The translations under genes were made by a program, and so were the position numbers. A stretch of DNA of 64,000 nt. Origin: Candidatus Zixiibacteriota bacterium. Its GTDB lineage: Bacteria > Zixibacteria > MSB-5A5 > GN15 > PGXB01. The stretch's first letter is position 1, and every line of letters starts with the position of its first letter. The notes beneath the pieces were generated by a model. It saw nothing but the letters and a program-made list of their open reading frames with translations, ran no database searches and was not told where the DNA came from. This document shows, piece by piece, positions 49,948 through 64,000 of this stretch. The stretch is from NCBI GenBank assembly GCA_016933955.1, contig JAFGTT010000012.1, positions 1 to 64,000 of the forward strand. The letters run 5' to 3'.

Positions 49948-52053
49948 ATGTCCCGAAAAGGATTTGCTGTCCTGTTGCTGTGCCTGCTGATATCGATCTC
50001 GGCATCCGCGCAGGGATTTAAAAAGGCCGCTATCGCTACCCTTCTGGAACGGCAGACGGCCAAGAATTATTCTGTCACTCCTCATTTTGCCTCGGCGGAA
50101 ATTTGTACTGTCCGTCATGATGTCGACGGCGATTTGTGGGGCGTGGATCACTGGTTGATCGGTGATGAATTATATAAATCATATCAAAACCCCGGGTTAT
50201 CCTGTGACGGGCCTTATCCTTTTTCGGTTGAATATATTTACATGGTGCTGTTTTTTGAAGGCGCCACCGATTTTTTGGTTTCGGTCGATGTCGAGGATGC
50301 CGATCTGACCGACCCGACCTGCCCGTTACCCGGTGACCTTTTGTCCATATCGACCACCTACACCGTCACCATTCCCTCGGCGGGTCTCTACCAGATCGAG
50401 GTTCCGCTGGATTCTTCGGCGGTGGTCGAAGGACCTTATTTTGCCGGTTTTTATTTTGCCGATTATATCGATACTCTCAGCGGTGCAACCATTGTCACCG
50501 ATGATGTTCCGGTTCCCTGCGTCAGTTACAATATCTGGGATACCACCCTGGGCTTTGTTGATCTGACCAATACCGGCTTTGCATCCTTTCCCAGTTTTCC
50601 GGGCCGTCTGCTCCTTTATTCGGCCGGGACTCCGGGCGGAAGCGGCGGAGAAGAACCGGAGCCGGCGGTAACCATCCTGACTCCCGCCTCCAATGAAATC
50701 ATCGTTGATGATATTGTTATCTGGGCGGCGGAAACGGCCGGAAGCGGCATTATCGATTACATGCAATTCGAATACAAAGAAAGTGGTGACTGGATTGAAA
50801 TCGGATATGACTACGATGGAATCAAAGCTATTCGGGACGGTCTCAATCCCTCGGGGACCGGGGATGGTTACAGCCTTGTCTGGGATTACTCCGGTTTGAG
50901 CGAAGGAGTGTACTGGCTGAGGACCACCGTTTATGATACTCTCGGGCGGTCCGATGCCGATTCCATCCAGGTCAACATCGACCCCACTCCGCCCATGGTA
51001 ACCCTGGTCAATCCGGCGGAGACCGATACCATCTGCCACCCGCTGGTGCTTGAGGCTGTCTCACCGGATGAGGATGTTTCGGTGGTCAAGTTCGAGAAAC
51101 TGCACGCGGCTATGGATTACAACCTGCCGGTCATTACCCTCAATCAGTCCGGGCATGGCGACGATTACTGCGGCCCGGTTTGCGGTGCCATCGCCGTTAA
51201 ATACTGGTTCGACCAGGGCTTCATCCTGAGTATGCGGGAAGGCAACCAGTATCTCTCGGCCGATACCGTGGTGGAACGTATGGCCGATGCCATGTTAACC
51301 GGGCAAAATGATGGCACCCCCGATGACCTTTTCTACAGCGGTTTCCTGCAGTATGTCGCCACCCACGGCAACGAATTGCTGTTGCGGCCTTATCGCAATC
51401 CCGATTATACTTCGATGCGCGCGATCATTCAGGATAAACAGCTTCTGGCCGTAATGGCCTTATCCGGTACACCCGGTCTGTATCTCGTGGCGGCCGGGGT
51501 TTCCGGTCTGGATGACGTCCAGGGGCAGTACACTTTGCGCGTTTCGGATCCCCTGACCGGTTCGATAGTGACCACCGCCATACGAAACGATGGCGCCGGA
51601 GGGGCCGAAGTCCTTTATAACGGTAACTGGCTGCACCTGGATATGATTATCACGGTCAAAGGTTATTCGCAGACGGTCACGCGCGACTATATCGGGGCCG
51701 ATATCAGTTCCGGGGATGGCTGGAAACTGACCTGGAACTCCTCCAACATGGCCGAGGATTCCCTGTATTTTATAACCATTACGGCTACCGATGCCTCGGG
51801 ACGGGTCGGTTCGGCCACTTCGATGTCGCTGTACAACTGCTCATCGGGATATGCCAAGGGAGATTACAACGGCGACGGTACGGTCAATATCGGGGATATT
51901 CTATATTTGATCGATTATATCTATGAAGACGGACCGGAACCGCTTGACGGCGGCGGCCGGGCCGATGCCAACTGCGATGGCAGTATCGACATCGGCGATG
52001 TAATTTACTTCATCAAGCATGTTCTGGCCGCAGGTCCCGAACCCTGTTACTGA
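49948..52053 (+). CDS. 701-aa secreted protein with degenerate C39-like peptidase domain and dockerin repeats
   Basis: The signal peptide ends near residue 22 (SASAQ). The N-terminal half is beta-rich, with Ig-like segments around 245-345 (AVTILTPASNEIIVDDIVIW). A papain-like C39-type domain follows (about 385-560): the nucleophile region is DDYCGPVCGAIAV, and DPLTGS supplies the usual Asp, but where the catalytic His is expected the text is GLYLVAAGVSG, without His. The C-terminus has two dockerin repeats (GDYNGDGTVNIGDILYLIDY, ADANCDGSIDIGDVIYFIKH). AAAAGGAG precedes the ATG. Confidence 0.8.
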   Translation: MSRKGFAVLLLCLLISISASAQGFKKAAIATLLERQTAKNYSVTPHFASAEICTVRHDVDGDLWGVDHWLIGDELYKSYQNPGLSCDGPYPFSVEYIYMVLFFEGATDFLVSVDVEDADLTDPTCPLPGDLLSISTTYTVTIPSAGLYQIEVPLDSSAVVEGPYFAGFYFADYIDTLSGATIVTDDVPVPCVSYNIWDTTLGFVDLTNTGFASFPSFPGRLLLYSAGTPGGSGGEEPEPAVTILTPASNEIIVDDIVIWAAETAGSGIIDYMQFEYKESGDWIEIGYDYDGIKAIRDGLNPSGTGDGYSLVWDYSGLSEGVYWLRTTVYDTLGRSDADSIQVNIDPTPPMVTLVNPAETDTICHPLVLEAVSPDEDVSVVKFEKLHAAMDYNLPVITLNQSGHGDDYCGPVCGAIAVKYWFDQGFILSMREGNQYLSADTVVERMADAMLTGQNDGTPDDLFYSGFLQYVATHGNELLLRPYRNPDYTSMRAIIQDKQLLAVMALSGTPGLYLVAAGVSGLDDVQGQYTLRVSDPLTGSIVTTAIRNDGAGGAEVLYNGNWLHLDMIITVKGYSQTVTRDYIGADISSGDGWKLTWNSSNMAEDSLYFITITATDASGRVGSATSMSLYNCSSGYAKGDYNGDGTVNIGDILYLIDYIYEDGPEPLDGGGRADANCDGSIDIGDVIYFIKHVLAAGPEPCY

Positions 52054-52106: not shown

Positions 52107-52442
52107 TTATTTGCGGGCCAGAGCGGCCGACACTGCCCGGCGGGCGACCTCGATATCGATGGCACAGATATCGATAATCTTGTCGACCGCCTCATCGAAA
52201 TACTTGATCCATTCTTCTCCAGGGTATTTCCGGACCAGGTCATCGGTGATTTCGTCGGCAATAGCGGCGATATAACCGGCGTAACGTCTACGGCTTTCGA
52301 TTTCCAGAAAAGGAACCAGGTATTTTTTGGCAAACCAGACGATCACGGTCATAATGACCGTCCCCAGACCGCCCATCAGACCAATGATATTATTCGTGAT
52401 AAATTCAAGGATTGACCCGAGCACGGGGATGACAGCTATCAT
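52107..52442 (-). CDS. Holin-like small membrane protein
   Basis: A 111-aa protein. The N-terminal half has one or two hydrophobic segments (about residues 1-45, with IIGLMGGLGTVIMTVIVWFA); the C-terminal half is an amphipathic helix with IAAIADEITDDLV and DEAVDKIIDICAID. The layout resembles LL-H-type phage holins, but the resemblance is of shape, not of a firm motif. It is the last gene of the phage-type operon, with GGAGGATTATT before the ATG. Confidence 0.45.
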   Translation of the reverse strand: MIAVIPVLGSILEFITNNIIGLMGGLGTVIMTVIVWFAKKYLVPFLEIESRRRYAGYIAAIADEITDDLVRKYPGEEWIKYFDEAVDKIIDICAIDIEVARRAVSAALARK

Positions 52443-52472
52443 AATAATCCTCCTTTGGATGTTAGCAATTAA

Positions 52473-53702
52473 TTACCAGGTAAACAGCCAGCTGGACTGA
52501 TCCGGGACAACCACCCGTTCCCGAAGGATAATCCCGTCGGGTCGGGCAACAGTTATTTCATAACGGGTGGTGTCGGGAGTCAGTTCGGTATTGGGAATCA
52601 GATCGAGATAGAAATAACCATTCCCGTCGCTGGTAGTTTCAACCATAAGCGGGGAAATAAGAGCCGCCCCGGCCCGGGTTACTCCGGCCGGAAGCCGGGC
52701 TGTTATGGCAGCATCGCTTTCGGGATTCCCGCTGATATTATAGACAAAACCATATAGACGACACATTCCCGGATCGGTCGGTTCGCCGGGATCAAACCGA
52801 TAGCCGAACAGGGTATCCAAGCCGGGCCCGGTTACAACGATGGTGTCGTAGGGATGAAAGATATATCCCGGCGCGAAGGCGGCTACCATAAAGGTATCGG
52901 GATTGAGGCTGAACCCGGCCGACCCGCTATTATCCGATTGCCCCACAGCGATCAGGGCTGTCTGCGGCAAATTACGGACATTTAGACCGACTCCCGGAAT
53001 CGGCTGATCCAGAGCCGTATCGAGAACCATGATTTCAATACTATAAGCTCCGCCCCCGACACTGATTCCGGAAATTTCGGCATCAAGATATTTCCCGAAA
53101 GTCCCCGATTGAGTATGATTACTCTGCGGGGTATTCCAGATACATCCCGCCAGCGTGGATGAATCGACCGCCTCGCTGAGATGCTCCAGACTGTCGATTA
53201 TTTTAGCCAGGGAATCGAATACCAGGTTGATACTGTCGACGGCCTTACGGGCAAAGGCGGCGGAATCGAGTGAATATTCCAGCGGTGTATTGACCACCTG
53301 GAAAAAGCCGCGGGTACTCGTCATCAGGTCGGCCCCGGTATTATCATCGACCGTGATAACATAGGCATAGACTCCGTTGGAGGGTGCATCGCCATCAAGA
53401 ACACTGACCTTTTCGGTCAGGACATATGATTTCGCCCCGTCAAAATCCTCCCATTCGTAACTTTTAATCCGGTCATCGTTATAGGCCATCGAATCGCGAT
53501 AGGCCAGTCCGCCGCCGGGGTAAAAAACGACCAGATAGGCCGAATCGCCCGCGGCCAGGTCAACCGGATTGCCGAGTGAATCCAAAACCAGAAACGGCAT
53601 TGACAGGGTGTCCCGATCGATTCCATTGCTGACAATGCCGAATCCCTGACACAAATCGAAAAGAAATAATATTTCAAAAAGACAGAGAATTATTCTTTTC
53701 AT
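52473..53702 (-). CDS. Exported protein of the phage module with Ig/carboxypeptidase-regulatory-like domain
   Basis: A 409-aa protein with a signal peptide (residues 1-20). A beta-rich N-terminal domain is followed by a helical stretch (about 150-185, DSINLVFDSLAKIIDSLEHL), then a regulatory-like Ig domain (MCRLYGFVYNISGNPESDAA, about 315-375). A helix between beta domains suggests a trimeric fibre-like protein. It overlaps the preceding gene by 4 bp (ATGA). Function unknown; exported proteins are unexpected in a capsid operon. Confidence 0.6.
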   Translation of the reverse strand: MKRIILCLFEILFLFDLCQGFGIVSNGIDRDTLSMPFLVLDSLGNPVDLAAGDSAYLVVFYPGGGLAYRDSMAYNDDRIKSYEWEDFDGAKSYVLTEKVSVLDGDAPSNGVYAYVITVDDNTGADLMTSTRGFFQVVNTPLEYSLDSAAFARKAVDSINLVFDSLAKIIDSLEHLSEAVDSSTLAGCIWNTPQSNHTQSGTFGKYLDAEISGISVGGGAYSIEIMVLDTALDQPIPGVGLNVRNLPQTALIAVGQSDNSGSAGFSLNPDTFMVAAFAPGYIFHPYDTIVVTGPGLDTLFGYRFDPGEPTDPGMCRLYGFVYNISGNPESDAAITARLPAGVTRAGAALISPLMVETTSDGNGYFYLDLIPNTELTPDTTRYEITVARPDGIILRERVVVPDQSSWLFTW

Positions 53703-55048
53703 AATTTTTCCTCCCTTGTTCTGCCACGAATGGTAAAGCTATCGTATTGGGAAGGAAAATTGCCGTTTCCGTACAAACCTGTCCATTCGGATTGAATTAT
53801 CCGGCGGCGTCTTCCGGGCGGCATATCCGCGGTTGCGGCAGTAAATTCGACATAAGCACTATACCCGTCGTTTTTATTGGAATAACCGGTCAGGCTGTCG
53901 GGAGCCGTCCAATCCCCGAGATCGGAGTACTTGATATCGCCCCACGAGGTAACATCGGCTTTAATACAGAGTTTTCCATTGATCGAATTATATCCCTGCA
54001 TCGAAACCATATAGGTCACTCCGGAGTCAAGAGCCCCACTCATGGGGCATTCCACCCAGATAGCGGCGGTATCGGTAACATCGGTAACGGATGACGAGGC
54101 ATGATATTTCGATTCATCAAGATCATCACCTCTGGTGTATGAATGGACCCGGACCTGGAGGGTTCCTTCCAGCTCGCCGCTTACATCGCAACCGACATAC
54201 CCGCCGGTGATTTCACCTTCGCCGGTTTCCAGGCAACCGATATTCCAGAGGACAATATGCCGATAATCAACGATGGTCAGATCCCAGACCCCCATGCTGG
54301 ACTTACCGAAGGTGGGATCGATGGTTACCGGATAGACCGCCGCGGCCATGAAATCGGAAGGCAGGGCGATATCAAAACGGTTGTTGATGGTATCGACAGC
54401 CAGATCGCACCAGGCCGAATCACCATGGGCATCGAAGGCCAGGGGGCGGCGGATATGAAAAGCCTTGCCGGTTTCATAATATCTGGTATGATTTTCATCA
54501 TCATCGGTCACGGTGATATTGTTCCGGCCGGACCGATGATAAACGGCATATGAACCCTGGACCCAATCGGGTCCTCGGCACATGATATCATCGCTGAATT
54601 GAGTGCTGTCCTGATAGAAGAAACATAGTCCGGACGAGATCATATCGAATGACAGCACTTCGGTATCCGGCGGCGTCTTCAGTTTGATTAACCATTCCAG
54701 ATCGCCATTGGGAGAGAGAAAAACGGAATGCACCGTGCTGTCGGACATTCGACAATCGATTACGGGAGCATCGTTGGCAGTATCCCGGTCGATTGACTGG
54801 ATGGTTATTCCCGGATCGCGTTTCAGGTCGAGACAAAAAGCCCCTTCGCCATTCCAGACCTCCAGTTTAAGGTTCGGCATGGTTTCACCCGTGGCGCTGT
54901 CGCCGAAAAGGGCGGTCAGATGACGGCGACCATCCCGATCATTTGCACCTGTGTTGTCCAGATCAAAACGGGCATAGATGCCCTCGGACAGAGCCGGCAG
55001 AGCCGTCAACCAGATTAAAAACATAAAACTTACAAATACATTCTTCAA
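53699..55048 (-). CDS. Exported protein of the phage module, unknown
   Basis: A 449-aa protein with a signal peptide (residues 1-21, ending LPALS). The N-terminal 240 residues include AVYPVTIDPTFG, a segment often found in front of DUF2341-like or LamG-like surface domains; the remainder is beta-rich with a GVTYMVSMQGYNS strand. No enzyme motif is seen. The start is TTG 55048 with GGAGG 7 nt upstream. It and its overlapping neighbour form a pair that could be a surface-displayed receptor or fibre. Confidence 0.6.
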   Translation of the reverse strand: MKNVFVSFMFLIWLTALPALSEGIYARFDLDNTGANDRDGRRHLTALFGDSATGETMPNLKLEVWNGEGAFCLDLKRDPGITIQSIDRDTANDAPVIDCRMSDSTVHSVFLSPNGDLEWLIKLKTPPDTEVLSFDMISSGLCFFYQDSTQFSDDIMCRGPDWVQGSYAVYHRSGRNNITVTDDDENHTRYYETGKAFHIRRPLAFDAHGDSAWCDLAVDTINNRFDIALPSDFMAAAVYPVTIDPTFGKSSMGVWDLTIVDYRHIVLWNIGCLETGEGEITGGYVGCDVSGELEGTLQVRVHSYTRGDDLDESKYHASSSVTDVTDTAAIWVECPMSGALDSGVTYMVSMQGYNSINGKLCIKADVTSWGDIKYSDLGDWTAPDSLTGYSNKNDGYSAYVEFTAATADMPPGRRRRIIQSEWTGLYGNGNFPSQYDSFTIRGRTREEKL

Positions 55049-55079
55049 ATCGAGCCTCCGTTGTTAATGCTTTTTGCTA

Positions 55080-55358
55080 TCAGCCGCCGGTTTCGGGGCG
55101 GTTTTTCTTGGTCGGAACCGGTTTCTTTTTCCCGGGTAATTCTTCATCGCGGATACGATTAATCATCTCCCAGAATTTTTTCTCGGCTTTACCCGAGACC
55201 GATAGTTTGTTTTTCATTTCCATCACCTTCAACAGGTCGCCCAATTTCGGGCTACCCGGGTTTTCACATATAGCTTCATAAATTCTTCTTTTCAGATTCT
55301 CGAGGATTTCGATATCCGAGGGTATTTGAACCTCCTTATTTTTGGCGGAATTATCCAT
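55080..55358 (-). CDS. Small helical protein of the phage module
   Basis: A 92-aa protein, charged and largely helical, with IPSDIEILENLKRRIYEAIC and a basic C-terminal tail (GKKKPVPTKKNRP). Not recognised; a small terminase-like or scaffold-like role is only a guess. It starts directly after the stop of the 124-aa gene. Confidence 0.55.
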   Translation of the reverse strand: MDNSAKNKEVQIPSDIEILENLKRRIYEAICENPGSPKLGDLLKVMEMKNKLSVSGKAEKKFWEMINRIRDEELPGKKKPVPTKKNRPETGG

Positions 55359-55733
55359 TTAGAGGCCTGTTTCATAAATAAAGAAATCGACCCGGATCGG
55401 TCCCGGAGCGTCGGGATCACGGACAATCCGAAATCCGGCGTTTGATTCCTCGCCGGCCAGGTAGGCCTGATGGCGCGAGCGGGGACGAATAATCACCCTC
55501 GGGGCATTGATCACGGCCGGAAGATTGTTGCCGTGGTGATCGACCAGATCGGCATACAGAATATCCTGGGCCGTGTCGCCGACGGAAAGAATCCCCAGCA
55601 TCAGGCGGCTGTCGGTATCAACCGTTTCAATACCCAGGTAGTGAAATTCGGCATCGGCCTCCAGCCCCCAGACCATGATATCACGGACAACCCACATACG
55701 GCGGCTTTTAAGATAAGCCAGAGTGTTCATCAT
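55359..55733 (-). CDS. Small phage-module protein, unknown
   Basis: A 124-aa beta-rich protein (HYLGIETVDTDSRLMLGILS, VRDPDAPGPIRVDFFIYETG). Two ATG codons in a row open it and the first overlaps the previous stop (TAATG). The position between connector-like and exported proteins suggests a structural role. Not recognised. Confidence 0.55.
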   Translation of the reverse strand: MMNTLAYLKSRRMWVVRDIMVWGLEADAEFHYLGIETVDTDSRLMLGILSVGDTAQDILYADLVDHHGNNLPAVINAPRVIIRPRSRHQAYLAGEESNAGFRIVRDPDAPGPIRVDFFIYETGL

Positions 55734-56557
55734 TATTTTCCTCCTCGGGATAAAGTCGGACGGCTCATCCGGGCGGCACCGGGACGAAAATTCATTATCA
55801 GGACCTGGTAATCCTCGCGGTAGCTATCCGCCAGCGCTATCCATGAAGAAGCAGTCGAAGATGCTTCGGGATTGAATTTCAGATCCCCCGCGGCCGCCAT
55901 TCGGCAAAGAAGAGAAACAGCCAGATAGGTGGCGGCGGCCTGCAAGACCGGATCGGCCCCGAACCGCTGATCCGGATCGACCTGTTTCTCGACGATGGCA
56001 TTGGCCTCGGATACCGCTCCGGAGATTATCTCGTCATTAAACCAGTTGCCGGAGAGTTCATAATCGACCATCAGAGTCTGGCCCACCTGGATAGCACCAT
56101 CCGGCAGGCGGCAAATCATGCCGTCGCTGCAGTTGATGGCGTAATCGACCCCGGCCTTATAGGCCGTGTAGAAATAGTACCACACCGCCACCTGACTGCC
56201 GGAGATAATATCCCCCGCGATAAGACGTTTGATTGTCCCCTGATCGCAATCGACACTGAAATCGACATTCTCGCGGTAAATTGCTCCGAGAGAATTATCG
56301 GAGGCGATGGTAACCGAACCGGGAACCAGCCGCTGGTGAGACACGGAAATTTCCCCATCATTGAGAATTGGTGTCTCGTAAGTCGGGGCGAATTCCCTGA
56401 CGGCTTTGACCATCACCGAACCCTCGACCACCCCCCGTCCCGGCAGGTTGACCCATTCCGTCCCGCCGAAAACAACCGGGTAATCCCTTCGCAGACCGAT
56501 CGGGCTATCATCCAGGCTGATATGCCTGTTGACCATTTCTGGATTGGTAAATGACAT
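55733..56557 (-). CDS. Phage structural protein with internal duplication (connector-like)
   Basis: A 274-aa protein from ATG 56557 (overlaps the previous stop as TGATG; a GTG one codon earlier is also possible). Residues 90-135 and 135-175 are two copies of a beta unit: YRENVDFSVDCDQGTIKRLI with ISGSQVAVWYYFY, and YKAGVDYAINCSDGMICRLP with IQVGQTLMVDYEL. The C-terminal part is helical (QAAATYLAVSLLCRMAAAGD), as in small head-tail connector proteins. Assignment is tentative. Confidence 0.55.
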   Translation of the reverse strand: MSFTNPEMVNRHISLDDSPIGLRRDYPVVFGGTEWVNLPGRGVVEGSVMVKAVREFAPTYETPILNDGEISVSHQRLVPGSVTIASDNSLGAIYRENVDFSVDCDQGTIKRLIAGDIISGSQVAVWYYFYTAYKAGVDYAINCSDGMICRLPDGAIQVGQTLMVDYELSGNWFNDEIISGAVSEANAIVEKQVDPDQRFGADPVLQAAATYLAVSLLCRMAAAGDLKFNPEASSTASSWIALADSYREDYQVLIMNFRPGAARMSRPTLSRGGK

Positions 56558-57972
56558 CACGGCTCCATGAGTATCAAAGATTCAGTATTGGTAACGGTTG
56601 TTAGTTGGGACCCGACCGGGCCGGGATCGAAATCAGATTGGACCACCGCCCGAACCCAGAACAGATTATTTCCCTGGACAGTATATTTTTGCCAGTCGGC
56701 CGGAATATTCAGGCTGTCATCCCATAGAAGTAATTCCCGGTCGAGATCGTTGAAATGGCAGGCTCCTCCCGAGGGTACGAAACCGTACCATTCCCGGCCA
56801 TTGTAATACTGCCAGCCGATTTCGCCACCGGAACCAACCGATGACAATATAATTTTCAGGTAATTAAATCGGGCCGACATCCCGAGGTAGAGAACATCAC
56901 CCGAATTCTTCAGGATTGCCTGTGAATCGGGGTGCAGAATATCTCCGGGAGTACTGTCGGCGGCGGCCGAGGTCAGATCGGCATAAGAGGCGCTCGTGGC
57001 ATTATAACACAGAACCTTTTCAAACTCGGACCGGGCCGGATCGAGCGGGGCCGGATCGGAGAAGGTTGTTCCCTGCCGGCGGCTGAACAGGATTTTGTTT
57101 TGATTCGATCCCGAAACAGCCAAGTAGATTATAAAAGGCTGATTATCGCGGTACTGCAACCGGGGAAAGACACCGCCGTCATCATCAACTGTGATAATAC
57201 CGCCCCATTTGTCGCCGTCGAATTCTCTGAATTTCAACCAGGTATCGTCGAAAACGATACCCAGGCGGTTATCATCGGATACAGCCGCCCTGAAGTTTTC
57301 ATCAAAACCGGTCCCGGTGGCAACATCGGCTTCATCCTCCCAGGTCGATACATTGATATGCTTGCGGCAGTACGACAGCTTCAGATCATCCTGGGTGAAG
57401 AAAAGATAAACATACGATCCGAAGACAATTATCTGGGAGTAGCCCGATGACAGCTCAGCCGAAATGGCATATCCGTAGCTATCCGGACCGGTGCCCCAGG
57501 TTTCGCCCTGGTCATCGGATGACTTGGCGTTGATATAACAACTTCCCGATGCCTGCCGGCTCCAGGCAACCCAGAGCCTTCCGGAGGGTTGAATGGTAAT
57601 GGATGGGTAGTGATTTTCATCGGCGTTGTAAACTGTATTGGCCGCTCCGGCCAGCCACAGGCCGCCCGTGAAAGTGAGTTTTCTTACGACCAGGGTTTTG
57701 TTGGTCTCCAGCGTATAAACCAGGTAAATATGCCCGTCGGGATCCATCACGGCGTCGAATGGAGAATCGGCGTTATCGCCGCAAACCGTGGCCGGCTGGC
57801 TCCAGGCGGTGTAGGGATAGTCGGCCCAGGATAAATATATTTCGTTCGGGGCGGTATGAAGAAGCACGATCATTCGTCCGGCGTACGGCCCTGAGGCGAC
57901 TTTGAAAAGCCGTTTATTGGTGCAGAGTCCGCCCCGTTGCGAGGCGGTGCTATCGGTCAGATGAATTTGCAT
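56557..57972 (-). CDS. Beta-propeller (BNR/sialidase-like) phage structural protein
   Basis: A 471-aa protein with repeats of the Asp-box/propeller type over the first 310 residues: IYLSWADYPYTAW, HIYLVYTLE, GRLWVAWSRQASGS, SSDDQGETWG, NQNKILFSRRQG. The C-terminal 150 residues are beta-rich and include WQYYNGREWYGFVPSGGA. No signal peptide. It lies directly behind the capsid gene, separated by a strong hairpin. It may bind glycans on the particle surface; the catalytic residues of sialidases are not seen. Confidence 0.6.
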   Translation of the reverse strand: MQIHLTDSTASQRGGLCTNKRLFKVASGPYAGRMIVLLHTAPNEIYLSWADYPYTAWSQPATVCGDNADSPFDAVMDPDGHIYLVYTLETNKTLVVRKLTFTGGLWLAGAANTVYNADENHYPSITIQPSGRLWVAWSRQASGSCYINAKSSDDQGETWGTGPDSYGYAISAELSSGYSQIIVFGSYVYLFFTQDDLKLSYCRKHINVSTWEDEADVATGTGFDENFRAAVSDDNRLGIVFDDTWLKFREFDGDKWGGIITVDDDGGVFPRLQYRDNQPFIIYLAVSGSNQNKILFSRRQGTTFSDPAPLDPARSEFEKVLCYNATSASYADLTSAAADSTPGDILHPDSQAILKNSGDVLYLGMSARFNYLKIILSSVGSGGEIGWQYYNGREWYGFVPSGGACHFNDLDRELLLWDDSLNIPADWQKYTVQGNNLFWVRAVVQSDFDPGPVGSQLTTVTNTESLILMEP

Positions 57973-57986
57973 TTAACCTTCCTTTA

Positions 57987-58017
57987 TATCGACCCGGCCG
58001 AAACAGCCGGGTCGATA
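57987..58017. other. Strong hairpin between capsid and propeller genes
   Basis: A perfect 12-bp stem TATCGACCCGGC/GCCGGGTCGATA with loop CGAAACA. No T tract follows on either strand, so it is more likely an mRNA processing or stability element, or a partial terminator, behind the highly expressed capsid gene. Confidence 0.7.
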
Positions 58018-58033
58018 ATCATTCGGAGATTGA

Positions 58034-59137
58034 TCAGGCGAAAATAGTGTCGAGAACTGCGGCCGCTTCCCGGATGACCTTGGCATAGGCTACCGATTCG
58101 GAGATGACCGCCTCCTCAAAACGTTGCTCGATAATTTTATCGTACTCAACCATGAGCGGCTGGGTGATCACTTCTTCGATGGCGAATCGCGAATCGAGAC
58201 CGACCACCAGATCGGTCGGCACCTCATCGCATCGCACCAGGGAAGCTCCCAGAGGGCTGAACATCTCCCCCGTCCCCTGGAAACGATAGCCGGCCATCGG
58301 GTCTTTGAATTCATCCAGCGTCAGAATGGATTTGAGTTTGTTGATATGACAGATAATCGTGTTCATCTCGAACGGTTCGAATTCGGCCCAGAGGGTGATC
58401 AGATCATCGTAGGTCATGGTACCGGAGGAGGCGGCATTGACCGTCACGGCCGGATTGTCGTTGCCGTCGCCGTTAAGGAGGCAATCAACCACCAGCGCGA
58501 TTTTATCCGTCTGCAGTTTAAACCCGATATACCATAACAACACCCGGAACTGGGCCGTGGTCCGGTAGCGGAGTGACTTATAACTGGCTCTCAGACCGAG
58601 ACCATATTCGGCGACATTGATGGAATGGTTCTGTTCGGTGACAATGAGCTGGGGAATTTCGCTTCCCTCGCCAATCGGCCGCAGGGAAAATTTGTCGGTG
58701 CTCGAGGTATCGACATGAAACGGCGTATAGCGGTTGTTGTTAACTACGGTGCTGTTGGCCAGCAGACGCGAGAGTTCGGGACGCATGGACTGGCCTTTTT
58801 TGATCTCCCTGAGAATGAACTCCGGCATCAGGGATGAGGCTTTCTGGTAGAACTGATCCACCAGGGTCGGGTTTTTCCCTCCCAGCCGGATTCCGGCCAG
58901 GGCCAGTTGCCGCTCGAAGGCATCCAACGGGGAATTACCGGGCGAGGGGTCATATTCCGGCGTCTCGAGCAGTTCACTTAAGGTCAGGCCGCGGTTCTCG
59001 GCTTCAAGATAAGTATCGCGGTCGATTTTGAGTTCCGCGGCCCGGCCGAAATCGACCATCCCGCCCGGTTCCCGATCCGATATTCTGTTGTTCATTTCGG
59101 ACACGGCATCGGATTGAAGAAATTTATTGAAATCCAT
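58034..59137 (-). CDS. Major capsid protein (HK97-fold type)
   Basis: A 367-aa protein. The N-terminal 110 residues are helical and charged, like the delta/scaffold region removed by a prohead protease. The body shows the HK97-like course: SINVAEYGLGLRASYKSLRY, then LQTDKIALVVDCLLNGDG, GYRFQGTGEMFSPLGASLVR, DLVVGLDSRFAIEEV, and the final QRFEEAVISESVAYAKVIRE helix. GGAGGA lies upstream of the ATG. Neighbours (protease and terminase upstream) support the call. Confidence 0.75.
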   Translation of the reverse strand: MDFNKFLQSDAVSEMNNRISDREPGGMVDFGRAAELKIDRDTYLEAENRGLTLSELLETPEYDPSPGNSPLDAFERQLALAGIRLGGKNPTLVDQFYQKASSLMPEFILREIKKGQSMRPELSRLLANSTVVNNNRYTPFHVDTSSTDKFSLRPIGEGSEIPQLIVTEQNHSINVAEYGLGLRASYKSLRYRTTAQFRVLLWYIGFKLQTDKIALVVDCLLNGDGNDNPAVTVNAASSGTMTYDDLITLWAEFEPFEMNTIICHINKLKSILTLDEFKDPMAGYRFQGTGEMFSPLGASLVRCDEVPTDLVVGLDSRFAIEEVITQPLMVEYDKIIEQRFEEAVISESVAYAKVIREAAAVLDTIFA

Positions 59138-59147
59138 CGACTCCTCC

Positions 59148-59579
59148 TTAATTCAGATAAATGGTGCAATCACTGGTCCCGTTGACTTCAAGAACCCATC
59201 CCCGCGCGATATTCCCTCCGGCCGGATCATAGCCGGTCAGAGCCGGGGCTTGCTTGACCGCCCCGCCGGCCGCGCCGACCACCCGGTTCCCGATCTCGGG
59301 ATAAGTGGCGCCGATCGGCAGGCGGCAGATTCCGCCGATCTGGACCGTGGCCTGACGCTGGCCGTTATCGCTGTCGGTCAGGGTCAGGGCCACCAGCTTG
59401 CCCAGCAGGGTGGAATTATTGTCGCACGGACCGACCTGATAATTTCCGGTCAATGTTACCGCCCGACCGATATCGGTATCCTTGAGATCATCGACATCGG
59501 CGGTCTGCGAAATGGAAAAGGTGGCCAGAACCGGCGCGATGGTTTCGAGATTTTGTTCTCTGATTGACATAGATATCAT
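59148..59579 (-). CDS. Capsid decoration-type protein
   Basis: A 143-aa protein, all beta, with SISQTADVDDLKDTDIGRAV, GKLVALTLTDSDNGQRQATV and GICRLPIGATYPEIGNRVVG. Small proteins of this look sit directly before major capsid genes in many tailed phages and coat the capsid surface. ATG 59579 and an ATG three codons later both have a usable AGGA. Assigned mostly from position and fold character. Confidence 0.5.
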   Translation of the reverse strand: MISMSIREQNLETIAPVLATFSISQTADVDDLKDTDIGRAVTLTGNYQVGPCDNNSTLLGKLVALTLTDSDNGQRQATVQIGGICRLPIGATYPEIGNRVVGAAGGAVKQAPALTGYDPAGGNIARGWVLEVNGTSDCTIYLN

Positions 59580-59647
59580 TTCCTTTCCTGGTTGTTTATT
59601 ATCTCAGGCCGGGGCTGTCCCCCACATGGCCGGGATATTATCCTCTG

Positions 59648-60061
59648 TCAGATTTTATGATCCATCCAGTTTTCGATTGAACCGGCCCGGCGGGCAAAAC
59701 CGAGGTATTTGAAACTGGATGGGAAATTATCACGAAAACGGGCCGCTGACCGGCTGTAAAGTTTTATCAGTTCCGAAACCGGCACGGTTTCCAGGTTATC
59801 GTTCAACCGATGTACCAGCGCGGCATCATCATCATTCGGGCGGCAGGCCATATTGGCCCGCAATATGCCGACCACCCGATTGCGATATTCTTCCTTGATA
59901 AGATTTAATTCCGAGGCCAGTCGGGTACATTCATCGCCGACGGCTCCTGTTTTATCAAGAACATTCCGTAAATCATCAAAGTTAATTTCCTCGATTGATT
60001 CGTCATCAAGGCAGGTCAGAATTGCATTTAACGTCTGTAAATCAAGAATATTTTTATTCAC
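59648..60061 (-). CDS. Phage-module protein, unknown
   Basis: A 137-aa acidic, helical protein (ILDLQTLNAILTCLDDESIE, ECTRLASELNLIKEEY) ending in an arginine-rich segment. Not recognised; a scaffold-like role would fit the position upstream of the capsid gene. The start is GTG 60061 behind GGGGAG/AGGAG, 2 nt after the upstream stop. Confidence 0.55.
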   Translation of the reverse strand: MNKNILDLQTLNAILTCLDDESIEEINFDDLRNVLDKTGAVGDECTRLASELNLIKEEYRNRVVGILRANMACRPNDDDAALVHRLNDNLETVPVSELIKLYSRSAARFRDNFPSSFKYLGFARRAGSIENWMDHKI

Positions 60062-60063
60062 TC

Positions 60064-60363
60064 CTATCTCCCCTGTTCGGTTAAGAAAAATTCTATTCGG
60101 GTCAGTCGTCTCTCGATATCATTCCTGAACTGGAAAAACTCATCCTTGCCGACCCGTCCTTCGCGGATCACCACTTCCAGCCGGGCCAGACGTTTATCGA
60201 TTGTCTCCACCAGGGCGGCCTCGGCTTTCTCGGCCAGGCGGACTTCGATAGAACCAATGGTGGTGAAATAGGCGGCTGTCACCCCCAGCAGGGCCATAAT
60301 AAAGCTGATCAGCGGCCGACTTATAAGACTGCGAAAACTGTCATTGCGATTGAAATCAGACAT
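60064..60363 (-). CDS. Small membrane protein with C-terminal coiled coil
   Basis: A 99-aa protein: a membrane helix at about residues 16-34 (LISFIMALLGVTAAYFTTIG) followed by a coiled coil (AALVETIDKRLARLEVVIRE, FRNDIERRLTRIEFFL). The shape resembles phage spanin or holin-associated proteins, but its place among head genes is odd. It overlaps the protease-fusion gene by 8 bp. Not recognised. Confidence 0.55.
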   Translation of the reverse strand: MSDFNRNDSFRSLISRPLISFIMALLGVTAAYFTTIGSIEVRLAEKAEAALVETIDKRLARLEVVIREGRVGKDEFFQFRNDIERRLTRIEFFLTEQGR

Positions 60364-62170
60364 TTTTGCCCCCTGAAAATTGATAAAAAAGATGACGCCT
60401 GTGACCGTTCAAAATAATCGGCCTGATGATATACTTCCCGCCCAGGAATCCATCAAGACTGATTTTAAGAGCATTATCTTGAGTTGTGTAATCGAGGATA
60501 TTTCCGGTTTCAAAGAAAGCACCTTCGTCGATCTTATCCGGCTGACCCTCATCGGCCGGAAAACGGCGCCCTTCTTCCAGCCGATCAGTATTAAATTTTT
60601 TGATGTTGTATGATCTCACACCATTTTCGAATTCCAGATCAAGCCGTATGGTTGTCTCCGAAACCCGGCTTAAGTGGTATCTTCCGGCATAATTCGCCGG
60701 TTCATCATTTTTAACCAGTTGACTTAAATCATCGGCGATTCCGTAAGCGAAGTGGCAGTCAATTACCCGGGGATGCATCAGATGCAAACCATCCGGCCGA
60801 TCCGTTATCGAAGCTGTCTCGATCTCTATCACATCTCCGACCCGGAAATCACGATTGCACCTCAAATGAGTGACGACCTTTGTATTGTCGCGGTTCCGGC
60901 CTTCCAGAGAATAATCGAAACCATTGCCCCGGCGTTCCTGACCGGTTATTCTCAATCGGATAAGATGCCGGTGAGTCAGCAGGTATTTTTCGTCCGAATC
61001 GAGAGTATGGATTTCAACTCCATAGCGGGTGGCAGTCTCCCAAATGGCCCCGGCCAGATTATCACCTGTGGCCACTCGTGCGGGCACCAGAAGATCGGGT
61101 GCCGCGGCAAACAGCCGGTTGAGTTCTTCGCGGCGTTCGGATCCGCCAACCCTGCGGTCCTCACTTGCCCCAGCTTTGAGAAGGTCACAAATTTTAAGTT
61201 CGATTCTCCTGACATTCGTTTTCTCGCCCTGCAGAAACCGGATCAATTCCTCGACCGGCCGACGCTCTTTCCCGCGGTGCCCGATCAATCGGGCCTCGAC
61301 AGCGAAATTATTATCGGGCATGGGTAACGATTCGAGATACTTATTCAGAATATCCGATTCCAACTCGATTTGGTCACCACCCAAAATCCGCATCCGGCCA
61401 TCGAATCTGCAAAGCGTCACCGGAAGGGACTCATAGGCCGGGAGAATATGATATTTTTTGCTTTTATTTAGCCGCTCCATCGACCAGATGCGTTGCGGCG
61501 GTTGGTATAATGGAATTATCCAAGAATTCGGGGATTCATCGCTCGTGACTTTGCGAAAGACCAGTTCATTGGTAATGGTGGTATCTTCCACCGAGCCCCG
61601 GTACACCAGCGATGTTTCCAAAACTTTGAGTATCTGACGGTAATTGAAATAGGCCTGACGCCGGTCGCCCCCGGGTACATCGTACTCCTCAAAAGGGCGG
61701 TGCCGGCATTTACGGATATCCTCACCGCAGATCGAGCACTCGGGGAAGTTGAAAATAAAACTGATCGAGCCTTCCTTATAAATACCGCCGTCAATATTAC
61801 GGCACAGGTCATCACTGCGATCGGCATTTTTTAGCCAGTAGAAATAAACCTTGACCCAGCGGACACCATCGCGAATGACCGTCTCGGCGTGAAAGTTCCT
61901 GGCAATCGGAAGGCTGTCCTTGCGGTGACCGATCAGCACCGGGCTGTCGATAAGCATCTCCGCCAGTTTCTCGTGCTCCTCGCCCGGAAAACAACCGCCA
62001 TAGCTGTTGACCTGATCGGAGACAATGTACATGGCCCGGATATGTACATTATCGGGGTGCACGGCGGTCGGCGGCTTGATATTGCGATTGATAATATCCG
62101 TCAGTTCCCGATAGCCTGATGGTTCCTTTTCGATCAGCGAGGCGGTAATACTTCCAACCAGATTTTTCAT
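60356..62170 (-). CDS. Prohead protease-like protein fused to a degenerate DNA-ligase-like domain
   Basis: A 604-aa protein from ATG 62170 (GGAGGAAAA upstream; a longer frame adds 26 residues without a site). Residues 1-140 resemble HK97-type prohead proteases: H82 in VLIGHRKDSLPIAR and S135 in KEGSISFIF fit the catalytic His and Ser. A zinc-knuckle-like CSIC...CRH (C145, C148, C155, H157) follows. From about 230 the order recalls ATP-dependent DNA ligases: RFDG (255-258) where KxDG is expected, AVEARLIGHRG like the DGE strand, IELKICDLLK like FDxLxL, SERREELNRLF, and an OB-like end with IEIETASITDRPDGLHLMHP. The adenylated Lys is Arg, so ligation is unlikely. Based on pattern only. Confidence 0.55.
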   Translation of the reverse strand: MKNLVGSITASLIEKEPSGYRELTDIINRNIKPPTAVHPDNVHIRAMYIVSDQVNSYGGCFPGEEHEKLAEMLIDSPVLIGHRKDSLPIARNFHAETVIRDGVRWVKVYFYWLKNADRSDDLCRNIDGGIYKEGSISFIFNFPECSICGEDIRKCRHRPFEEYDVPGGDRRQAYFNYRQILKVLETSLVYRGSVEDTTITNELVFRKVTSDESPNSWIIPLYQPPQRIWSMERLNKSKKYHILPAYESLPVTLCRFDGRMRILGGDQIELESDILNKYLESLPMPDNNFAVEARLIGHRGKERRPVEELIRFLQGEKTNVRRIELKICDLLKAGASEDRRVGGSERREELNRLFAAAPDLLVPARVATGDNLAGAIWETATRYGVEIHTLDSDEKYLLTHRHLIRLRITGQERRGNGFDYSLEGRNRDNTKVVTHLRCNRDFRVGDVIEIETASITDRPDGLHLMHPRVIDCHFAYGIADDLSQLVKNDEPANYAGRYHLSRVSETTIRLDLEFENGVRSYNIKKFNTDRLEEGRRFPADEGQPDKIDEGAFFETGNILDYTTQDNALKISLDGFLGGKYIIRPIILNGHRRHLFYQFSGGKNV

Positions 62171-62340
62171 TTTTCCTCCATACTGAAGTCTGGCAGGCCG
62201 GCAAATACCACCGAATCGATGCAGAAATTGTCCGCCCGATTTATGCAAGAGAATTCACAGCCTTTTCCGTCCAAATTAAGACAATCTGGTAATTAATTAT
62301 TGGACAACTACTTACAAGGCCCGGCAAGATTTGGTTCCGA

Positions 62341-62608: not shown

Positions 62609-62648
62609 ATGGCCTGGATTGCAGACCCGGATTCAGGCCATTTTATAT
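62609..62648 (+). terminator. Terminator of the 39-aa gene
   Basis: ATGGCCTG (62609-62616) and CAGGCCAT (62634-62641), followed by TTTATATTTT. It overlaps the stop codon of the convergent terminase gene. On the minus strand there is no T tract. Confidence 0.65.
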
Positions 62649-64000
62649 TTTCCCCAGACGCGGTTTGATAACGGGTGTTTCCGGCTTGTACAACGGCCAG
62701 AGAGCCAGCGCCAGGGCCATGACGCTGTCGCAGGTATTGTTATCGTCCCACCTCGCCGAACGCAGTTCATCTTCCAGCGACCAGATCCGTCCTTCGGCAT
62801 CCGGGATTTCCCAGCGGGCATACCTGATTTTTTTCATACTGTGAAACAACTCCAGATTGGTCAGCAATTCCGCCTTGGAGCGGGCCGTGAAAATAAAAGT
62901 CGTCGGATTATAATCCTGGAGTTGCGACACCACCACATCCCCCAATCCGGTGGCGTCAATCACCAGCCGCCCGGGATAAATCCGCTGGCGGGTCCGGATA
63001 TGTTCCAGGATAATATTCCAGTCCCATTTTCTGATCCTGACCAGATCGACCACGGTGCATCGTCCCTCAAAAACCTCTATCGTAATCCCGACCGTGGCGG
63101 TTTTTTTGCGAGCCAGATCCCAGCCGGATATATAAAAACGGTTTTTATCCGGCTGACCGGGAACTCGTTTCGGTGTATCATCCATCAGAGCGGCATCAAT
63201 ATCTTTGCCGGGAATGATCTCGCCTCCGGAATCGATAAATTGCCCCATGATATTCTGAGAAACCCGCTTATCGCTCAGATAACGAAGTTGCATGGACAGG
63301 TATTCATGAGAAATATAGCTGTTTTCCCGGGAATCGCCGTTTTGAATATAGGCATCGTCGGGACGATCCTTCAGTTCCATCATTTTTTTATAGAACCAGT
63401 TCCGCCCGTTCGGGGTTGAGATCAGATCAAGGCGCCCCCGGCGGTCGGCCAGACGCATTTTGATGACTTCATTAACCACATATTCGGCCTCATCCTCGAA
63501 GGCCACCTCGTCGAAAACAAAAAAATCATAATCGTTGCCCAGCAGATACTCCCCCCGATGCTGGGTCGACCGGGCTTCGATCAGGGCGCCGTTACCGAGG
63601 TAAATTCGGGGATATGGTGTCACTGTCATTTTTTTCACCAGTCCCTTTATCCGGCAGGAACCATTCAGAATTCTGAGAACGGTGTTGAATATGATCCGGG
63701 CCTGATCGAGCGTTATGCTGGCACAGACAATATTGTACCTGCCGGCCCGGTCGTACTGACGATCCCGGTAACGAAACAGGGCATGGTGAATGATCTTGAT
63801 CGCTTCGGCAAATGATTTCCCCCAGCGATTACCGGTAACCAGCAGGTTCTCGGCCTTAAGGCTGTTTTTCAGCCAGCGTTCCTGCCCCGGATGGGGCGTG
63901 ATATCCAGAAATTTAACGGCGAAAAACGCAATATCGCGGATGGCCCGCTTCCAGTCGGAATGTTCGAAAAGCGCGCCTATATCAGTTCTCCGGCCAACCG
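62643..64000 (-). CDS. Phage terminase large subunit (5' end beyond window)
   Basis: The frame is open to the right edge (452 codons visible); GTG 63638 is internal. The ATPase domain has the deviant Walker A of large terminases, LLVTGNRWGKSFAEA, near the right edge, and Walker B FFVFDEVAFEDEAE, followed by LISTPNGRNWFYKK (coupling region). The RNase H-like nuclease domain has YISGWDLARKKTATVGI with the first catalytic Asp and LVIDATGLGDVVV with the second. It packages DNA into proheads. The next gene of the operon is the protease fusion, not a portal gene, which is unusual. Confidence 0.9.
   Translation of the reverse strand, partial: VGRRTDIGALFEHSDWKRAIRDIAFFAVKFLDITPHPGQERWLKNSLKAENLLVTGNRWGKSFAEAIKIIHHALFRYRDRQYDRAGRYNIVCASITLDQARIIFNTVLRILNGSCRIKGLVKKMTVTPYPRIYLGNGALIEARSTQHRGEYLLGNDYDFFVFDEVAFEDEAEYVVNEVIKMRLADRRGRLDLISTPNGRNWFYKKMMELKDRPDDAYIQNGDSRENSYISHEYLSMQLRYLSDKRVSQNIMGQFIDSGGEIIPGKDIDAALMDDTPKRVPGQPDKNRFYISGWDLARKKTATVGITIEVFEGRCTVVDLVRIRKWDWNIILEHIRTRQRIYPGRLVIDATGLGDVVVSQLQDYNPTTFIFTARSKAELLTNLELFHSMKKIRYARWEIPDAEGRIWSLEDELRSARWDDNNTCDSVMALALALWPLYKPETPVIKPRLGKI

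Follow-up and report, generated by a model that had tools for sequence, protein, structure and literature searches.

Gene content of the cluster and its viral relatives

The window (the whole stretch of 64,000 nucleotides analysed, from one end of a contig of a Candidatus Zixiibacteriota bacterium) carries on its minus strand two overlapping ORFs, here named p409 and p449 after the lengths of their products (409 and 449 aa). The p409 ORF spans positions 52473-53702 and starts with ATG, and the p449 ORF spans positions 53699-55048 and starts with TTG; they overlap by four bases (ATGA). A Shine-Dalgarno-like GGAGG lies 6 nt 5' of the TTG and a Shine-Dalgarno-like GGGAGG lies 7 nt 5' of the ATG, which supports both start sites. 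The ORF list and the sequence confirmed the two reading frames and their 4-bp overlap as given in a preliminary description of this DNA. That description had also placed the pair among head genes, and p449 and p409 indeed lie downstream of the capsid gene (58034-59137) in one co-oriented run. The cluster is about 13 kb long, and its portal and terminase genes continue the run upstream, beyond the window's edge. Its features, in order of transcription, are as follows.

Portal gene, end: 63977..64000, minus strand; the whole gene occupies contig positions 63977-65236
Terminase large subunit (TerL): 62643..63998, minus strand; frame open at the window's edge, true start not fixed
p630: 60356..62248, minus strand; N-terminal part common to capsid-linked phage proteins (PHROG 16951)
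p99: 60064..60363, minus strand; N-terminal membrane segment, then a charged, helical-looking part (by eye)
p137: 59648..60061, minus strand; small, conserved
p143: 59148..59579, minus strand; virion structural protein (PHROG 4588), possible head decoration
Major capsid protein: 58034..59137, minus strand; PHROG 3922, E 4e-59
p471: 56557..57972, minus strand; conserved, propeller-like, with a BNR_2 match below the Pfam cut-off
p275: 55733..56560, minus strand; conserved, possible connector
p124: 55359..55733, minus strand; small, conserved; a neck or closure role is only a guess
p92: 55080..55358, minus strand; small, conserved
p449: 53699..55048, minus strand; export signal, family also in phages; supersandwich-like N-terminal half and C-terminal beta part (weak model)
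p409: 52473..53702, minus strand; predicted to be exported, tail-fibre-like; N-terminal beta domain, long helix and two beta-sandwich domains
p111: 52107..52442, minus strand; small membrane protein, holin-like

The capsid protein, TerL, portal and p143 match head-and-packaging PHROGs. A single p630 member among 48 pooled ones matches a head maturation protease PHROG (E 0.008), and to call p630 a protease would be a guess. Three of 22 p111 members match holin PHROG 6918 (best E 1.5e-4), the window's own copy not being one of them, and single members also weakly match other PHROGs. No endolysin was recognised within the cluster. The flanks carry host genes, named from sequence: lipA and an HD response regulator on one side, and a TPR lipoprotein, a RecB-like nuclease, pyrF and pyrD on the other. 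No integrase or replication genes were seen when the ORFs listed for the cluster and both flanks were inspected by eye. Bases 52107-62248 have a GC content of 0.521, compared with 0.511 for bases 1-52106.

Two further genes adjoin the cluster. A secreted protein of 701 aa (window positions 49948-52053) lies next to p111 and is present in 32 of the 57 other genomes of the order (families f1-f4), and a PEP-CTERM-like protein of 252 aa (contig positions 65532-66290) lies next to the portal gene and is present in 14 of these 57. Both neighbours may be functionally linked to the cluster.

The nearest viral capsids found, in 20 viral contigs and six phage records, are 24-37% identical to the capsid protein. 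HMM searches of the 20 contigs recovered a portal in 18, p143 in 14 and a short p630 relative in 13, and none of p471, p275, p124, p92, p449, p409 and p111. In three of the viral contigs (L162, L175 and L176) sheath- or tape-measure-like genes come next, as judged by eye. Searches with two Pfam families in 15 genomes, which together with the gene content of the cluster define tail absence here, detected the tape-measure family in none and the sheath family in one, not the window's own. As no tail module was recognised, the particle would be short-tailed or tailless; a 38-residue match of p275 to a tail-protein PHROG with an Ig-like domain makes a short tail possible.

Distribution, inheritance and selection across Zixibacteria

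The distribution of the cluster was examined in 132 genomes of the phylum, the window's own included, 78 of which were good genomes (at least 90% complete and at most 5% contaminated). The capsid gene was present in 111 of the 132 genomes, 73 of the 78 good ones, 74 of 85 genera and 18 of 19 families. TerL was present in 115 of the 132 genomes (two of the 115 matches being weak) and in 71 of the good ones. A capsid match was lacking in five good genomes; three of these have TerL (deduced in the case of G120), and G028 and G070 have neither, so that capsid and/or TerL occur in 76/78 good genomes. No genome carries two whole capsid copies; two partial matches were found in each of G044, G100 and G122, overlapping in G044 and G122. 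In a set of 60 genomes that includes the window's own, the capsid gene was present in 53 and p409 in 55. Where the contig reaches, p471 (85/85) and p275 (77/77) were always present, and TerL and portal lay within the cluster in 48/67 and 45/64 genomes, respectively; of the remaining genomes, several carry TerL at another site, and TerL lies away from the capsid gene in several families. Among relatives in GTDB genomes, the best 80 of 129 are mostly Candidatus Zixiibacteriota, with a few titled as other taxa. In G044 the capsid gene is split between places about 0.6 Mb apart and in G004 TerL between places about 0.4 Mb apart, on one contig each, as if the cluster had been broken by rearrangement or misassembly.

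Trees of four cluster proteins, from 99 genomes read, were scored against GTDB family labels. The capsid tree (98 of the 99 rows) spans 18 GTDB families and requires 17 label changes, which is the minimum, compared with an average of 60.6 for shuffled labels. The p471 tree (90 rows, 16 changes) and the TerL tree (44 rows, 11 changes) are likewise minimal. The p409 tree (69 rows) requires 19 changes against a minimum of 16, and families f1, f4, f15, f16 and f19 do not form single clades in it. The neighbour lipA was found in 17 of the 57 other genomes of the order, many of these clusters being ended early by contig ends, and neither lipA nor the 701-aa neighbour was found in 41 genomes of other families.

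Estimation of dN/dS for 15 same-genus pairs gave medians of 0.048 for the capsid gene, 0.112 for TerL, 0.111 for p409 and 0.23 for p449 (four pairs); the medians of all 14 genes range from 0.048 to 0.31, and single pairs reach 0.73 in p124, 0.59 in p92 and 0.55 in p137. In TerL, the Walker A residues, the acidic pair of Walker B and three aspartates of the nuclease are invariant in 44/44 sequences. By the measure of these counts, trees and ratios, the cluster is a single locus with low dN/dS, inherited vertically through the phylum Zixibacteria. The preliminary description had spoken of a lysogen, a term that does not suit a single, vertically inherited locus under low dN/dS between host genes.

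Export signals and relatives of p449 and p409

Export signals were scored with a home-made rule: a positive start, a hydrophobic core and small residues at the cleavage site, allowing any start within the first 75 codons, the same rule being applied to every family. The clear signal peptides that the preliminary description had read on both proteins are borne out at the level of the families, with a signal in 68 of 72 p409 orthologues and in 22 of 27 Zixibacteria members of the p449 family, but not for the window's own p409, which fails the rule. With a Glu and an Asp inside the hydrophobic core, this copy has a weaker signal than its orthologues; the other three p409 failures are ORFs that appear, by eye, to be wrongly framed or extended. 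No signals were scored in the head and packaging proteins (portal 0/43, TerL 0/48, capsid 0/98), and they were absent or in the minority in p630 (0/79), p92 (0/67), p471 (1/92), p137 (2/85), p111 (2/38), p124 (5/80), p143 (7/95) and p275 (9/85). The rule was satisfied in 66 of 81 p99 proteins, where it probably picks up a membrane segment. Control host proteins scored 0/17 (lipA), 0/5 (RecB-like), 0/3 (pyrF) and 1/5 (HD response regulator), and presumed secreted neighbours scored 20/23, 16/16, 9/10, 8/8 and 3/3. These scores indicate that p449 and p409 are very probably exported. Of 73 genomes, 54 have a signal-bearing ORF in the slot before p409, nine have an ORF there that fails the rule and ten have no ORF of 150 aa; in many genomes the slot is occupied by proteins other than p449 or by nothing long.

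The predicted structure of p409 (pLDDT 83.9, pTM 0.42) consists of an N-terminal beta domain, a long helix (residues 141-174) and two beta-sandwich domains. Its nearest folds among viral models are phage G gp160, baseplate and tail-collar proteins, and its nearest PDB folds are SpaA-type pilins and adhesins of Gram-positive bacteria; the whole-length TM-scores are all low, so these matches cover single domains. A carboxypeptidase-regulatory-like domain was matched by 30 of 43 p409 members. Matches to four tail-fibre PHROGs were found among the same 43 (best E 3e-14); no single one of these PHROGs was matched by more than two members, and the window's copy matched none of them. No p409 match was obtained by tblastn in phage records, nor any relative with p409 as a single-protein query in viral contigs, and searches of PDB sequences with the capsid and p409 profiles returned nothing usable. 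The tail-fibre matches in a few orthologues, with a multi-domain beta model containing a long helix, agree with the earlier proposal of adhesin- or fibre-like proteins.

The p449 family is patchy, occurring in 18 of 60 genomes, and no Pfam family was matched in 12 members. The p449 model is weak (pLDDT 62.4); its N-terminal half resembles the supersandwich domains of carbohydrate enzymes (Z about 10), a likeness that indicates no function, and the best viral fold match is A0A5Q2W7D1 (E 3e-22). In the C-terminal part, RRRR occurs near the C-terminus in six of 12 aligned proteins, the rest being mostly basic there. The podophage ctMEh928 encodes a homologue (39% over 155 aa), with peptidase and holin genes a short way after it; a scan of this phage stretch found none of the other cluster families. 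Relatives of p449 are present in 66 viral contigs; used as single-protein queries, neither p449 nor the ctMEh928 homologue retrieved relatives in viral contigs.

Of the 67 viral p449 members examined, 63 were untruncated; five of these carry a signal and 58, like the ctMEh928 protein, do not. Homologues lacking the N-terminal hydrophobic segment, which the preliminary description had named as evidence against its proposal, are thus the rule among viral relatives, yet 22 of the 27 domesticated copies have the segment, which argues for a signal gained between virion and host gene and against a misread N-terminus. In the p449 tree, 18 of the 27 Zixibacteria members form one supported group with the signal-bearing viral copy from contig L261, and the remaining nine, whose matches are short, are placed among viral sequences, with weak support. 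As five of the 63 viral relatives are signal-bearing, one of them (L261) inside the main Zixibacteria clade, the signal need not date from domestication. The grouping of the L261 protein with Zixibacteria copies also suggests that the host of that phage may be related to Zixibacteria.

Similar arrangements were seen in phage contigs. In L288 (7983-12163), two overlapping signal-bearing genes, encoding a 404-aa member of the p449 family and a 989-aa protein that looks fibre-like by eye, lie between terminase-like and portal-like genes and mirror the p449/p409 pair in a phage. In the tailed-phage contigs L261 and L290, small exported-looking proteins precede a signal-bearing p449 relative.

Candidate function of the cluster

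We estimate a probability of about 0.62 that p449 and p409 belong to a vertically inherited, domesticated phage particle cluster, most likely a gene-transfer-agent-like one. In such a system, heads would be assembled in the cytoplasm and presumably loaded with host DNA by portal and terminase, and p471, p275 and p124 would perhaps close the portal vertex. Proteins p449 and p409, as former virion fibres, would be routed via Sec to the envelope, and p111 would open the inner membrane, leading to release of the particle. The exported fibres could subsequently coat the particle at lysis, or else be displayed on the cell surface and bind particles or partner cells there. Uptake of DNA is conceivable at any rate, since ComEC was found in 19 of 20 genomes, the window's own included; it is common in bacteria and was found in 10 of 14 control genomes. 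A more far-reaching version, which we regard as doubtful, is that nearly the entire phylum has carried since its origin a tailless phage-derived machine for DNA packaging in two parts, with heads built inside the cell and Sec-rerouted fibres on the envelope, the cells themselves thus displaying the docking half of a gene-transfer system.

Several alternatives were weighed. It is conceivable, if unlikely, that particles are made but never touched by p449 and p409, which would be ordinary adhesins or exclusion factors of the cell surface. The signals in both families, the structural nearness of p409 domains to Gram-positive pilin and adhesin domains and the varying slot before p409 fit such proteins; however, p409, coupled to virion genes, is present in 57 of the 58 clusters where the contig reaches, and links to phage fibre or tail-region proteins exist for both families. 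Decidedly unlikely is a phage-head-derived device that is never released, in which heads, docked at the envelope by way of p99, p111 and the exported pair, would pass DNA out of or into the cell. This idea draws on the membrane segments in p99 and p111, the two exported proteins and the lack of a recognised tail module, but the holin-like character of p111 in some members suggests lysis. An ordinary or cryptic prophage, with phage head genes in an operon as here, is barely credible and was rejected because 18 of the 19 families share one orthologous locus with low dN/dS, the capsid, p471 and TerL trees are congruent with GTDB families, and no integrase was seen by eye in the ORF lists. A tailocin or contractile injection system was also rejected, given the presence of capsid and TerL and the sheath result above, as was a decaying remnant, given the vertical inheritance of a single locus, the low dN/dS and the gene content.

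For the gene-transfer-agent-like reading, established systems offer a comparison. The definition of a gene transfer agent (GTA) in PMC9662315 has six features. Three of them were found for the cluster: proteins derived from caudoviricetes (the PHROG matches of capsid, TerL, portal and p143); full endogenisation, often at several loci (host flanks, neighbours common within the order, and TerL apart in some families); and vertical inheritance, in the capsid, p471 and TerL trees and partly in that of p409 (19 versus 16 changes). The other three features concern the particles themselves: they enclose largely random host DNA, the system's own genome exceeds what they can hold in full, and their DNA reaches other cells. 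With three of the six features found, the cluster, about 13 kb long, is classed as GTA-like only. Like the cluster, the viriforms RcGTA, BaGTA and BhGTA have caudoviricete-derived head, portal and TerL genes that are chromosomal and co-diversify with the host, and GTA parts may sit at several loci (PMC9662315), as does TerL, apart from the capsid gene, in several Zixibacteria families. Unlike GTAs, the cluster covers most of a phylum that the passages of PMC9662315 consulted do not name. It also differs from RcGTA, BaGTA and BhGTA in having no recognised tail genes and in its fibre-like proteins with export signals. FpGTA of Faecalibacterium is likewise a compact head operon, present in 12/12 Faecalibacterium genomes examined, and its particles have no identifiable tails; in contrast to the cluster, its host is Gram-positive, its fibre, holin and endolysin genes lie in a second operon, and exported virion proteins are not mentioned (PMC12946183, section on GTA-like packaging). 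The podophage ctMEh928 resembles the cluster in having a p449 homologue near peptidase and holin genes, whereas in this phage and in most viral homologues the relative has no signal peptide. In the literature searched, no report of the cluster was found, nor any paper that joins Zixibacteria with gene transfer agents or capsid, or Zixiibacteriota with phage.

GTAs are established in only a few lineages, and the cluster is an old candidate across most of a phylum of uncultured bacteria. Its two fibre-like proteins, predicted to be exported, offer a direct test of binding and DNA delivery by a tail-poor particle, and comparison of the phage and host copies of p449 shows at the level of sequence how domestication may redirect a virion protein.
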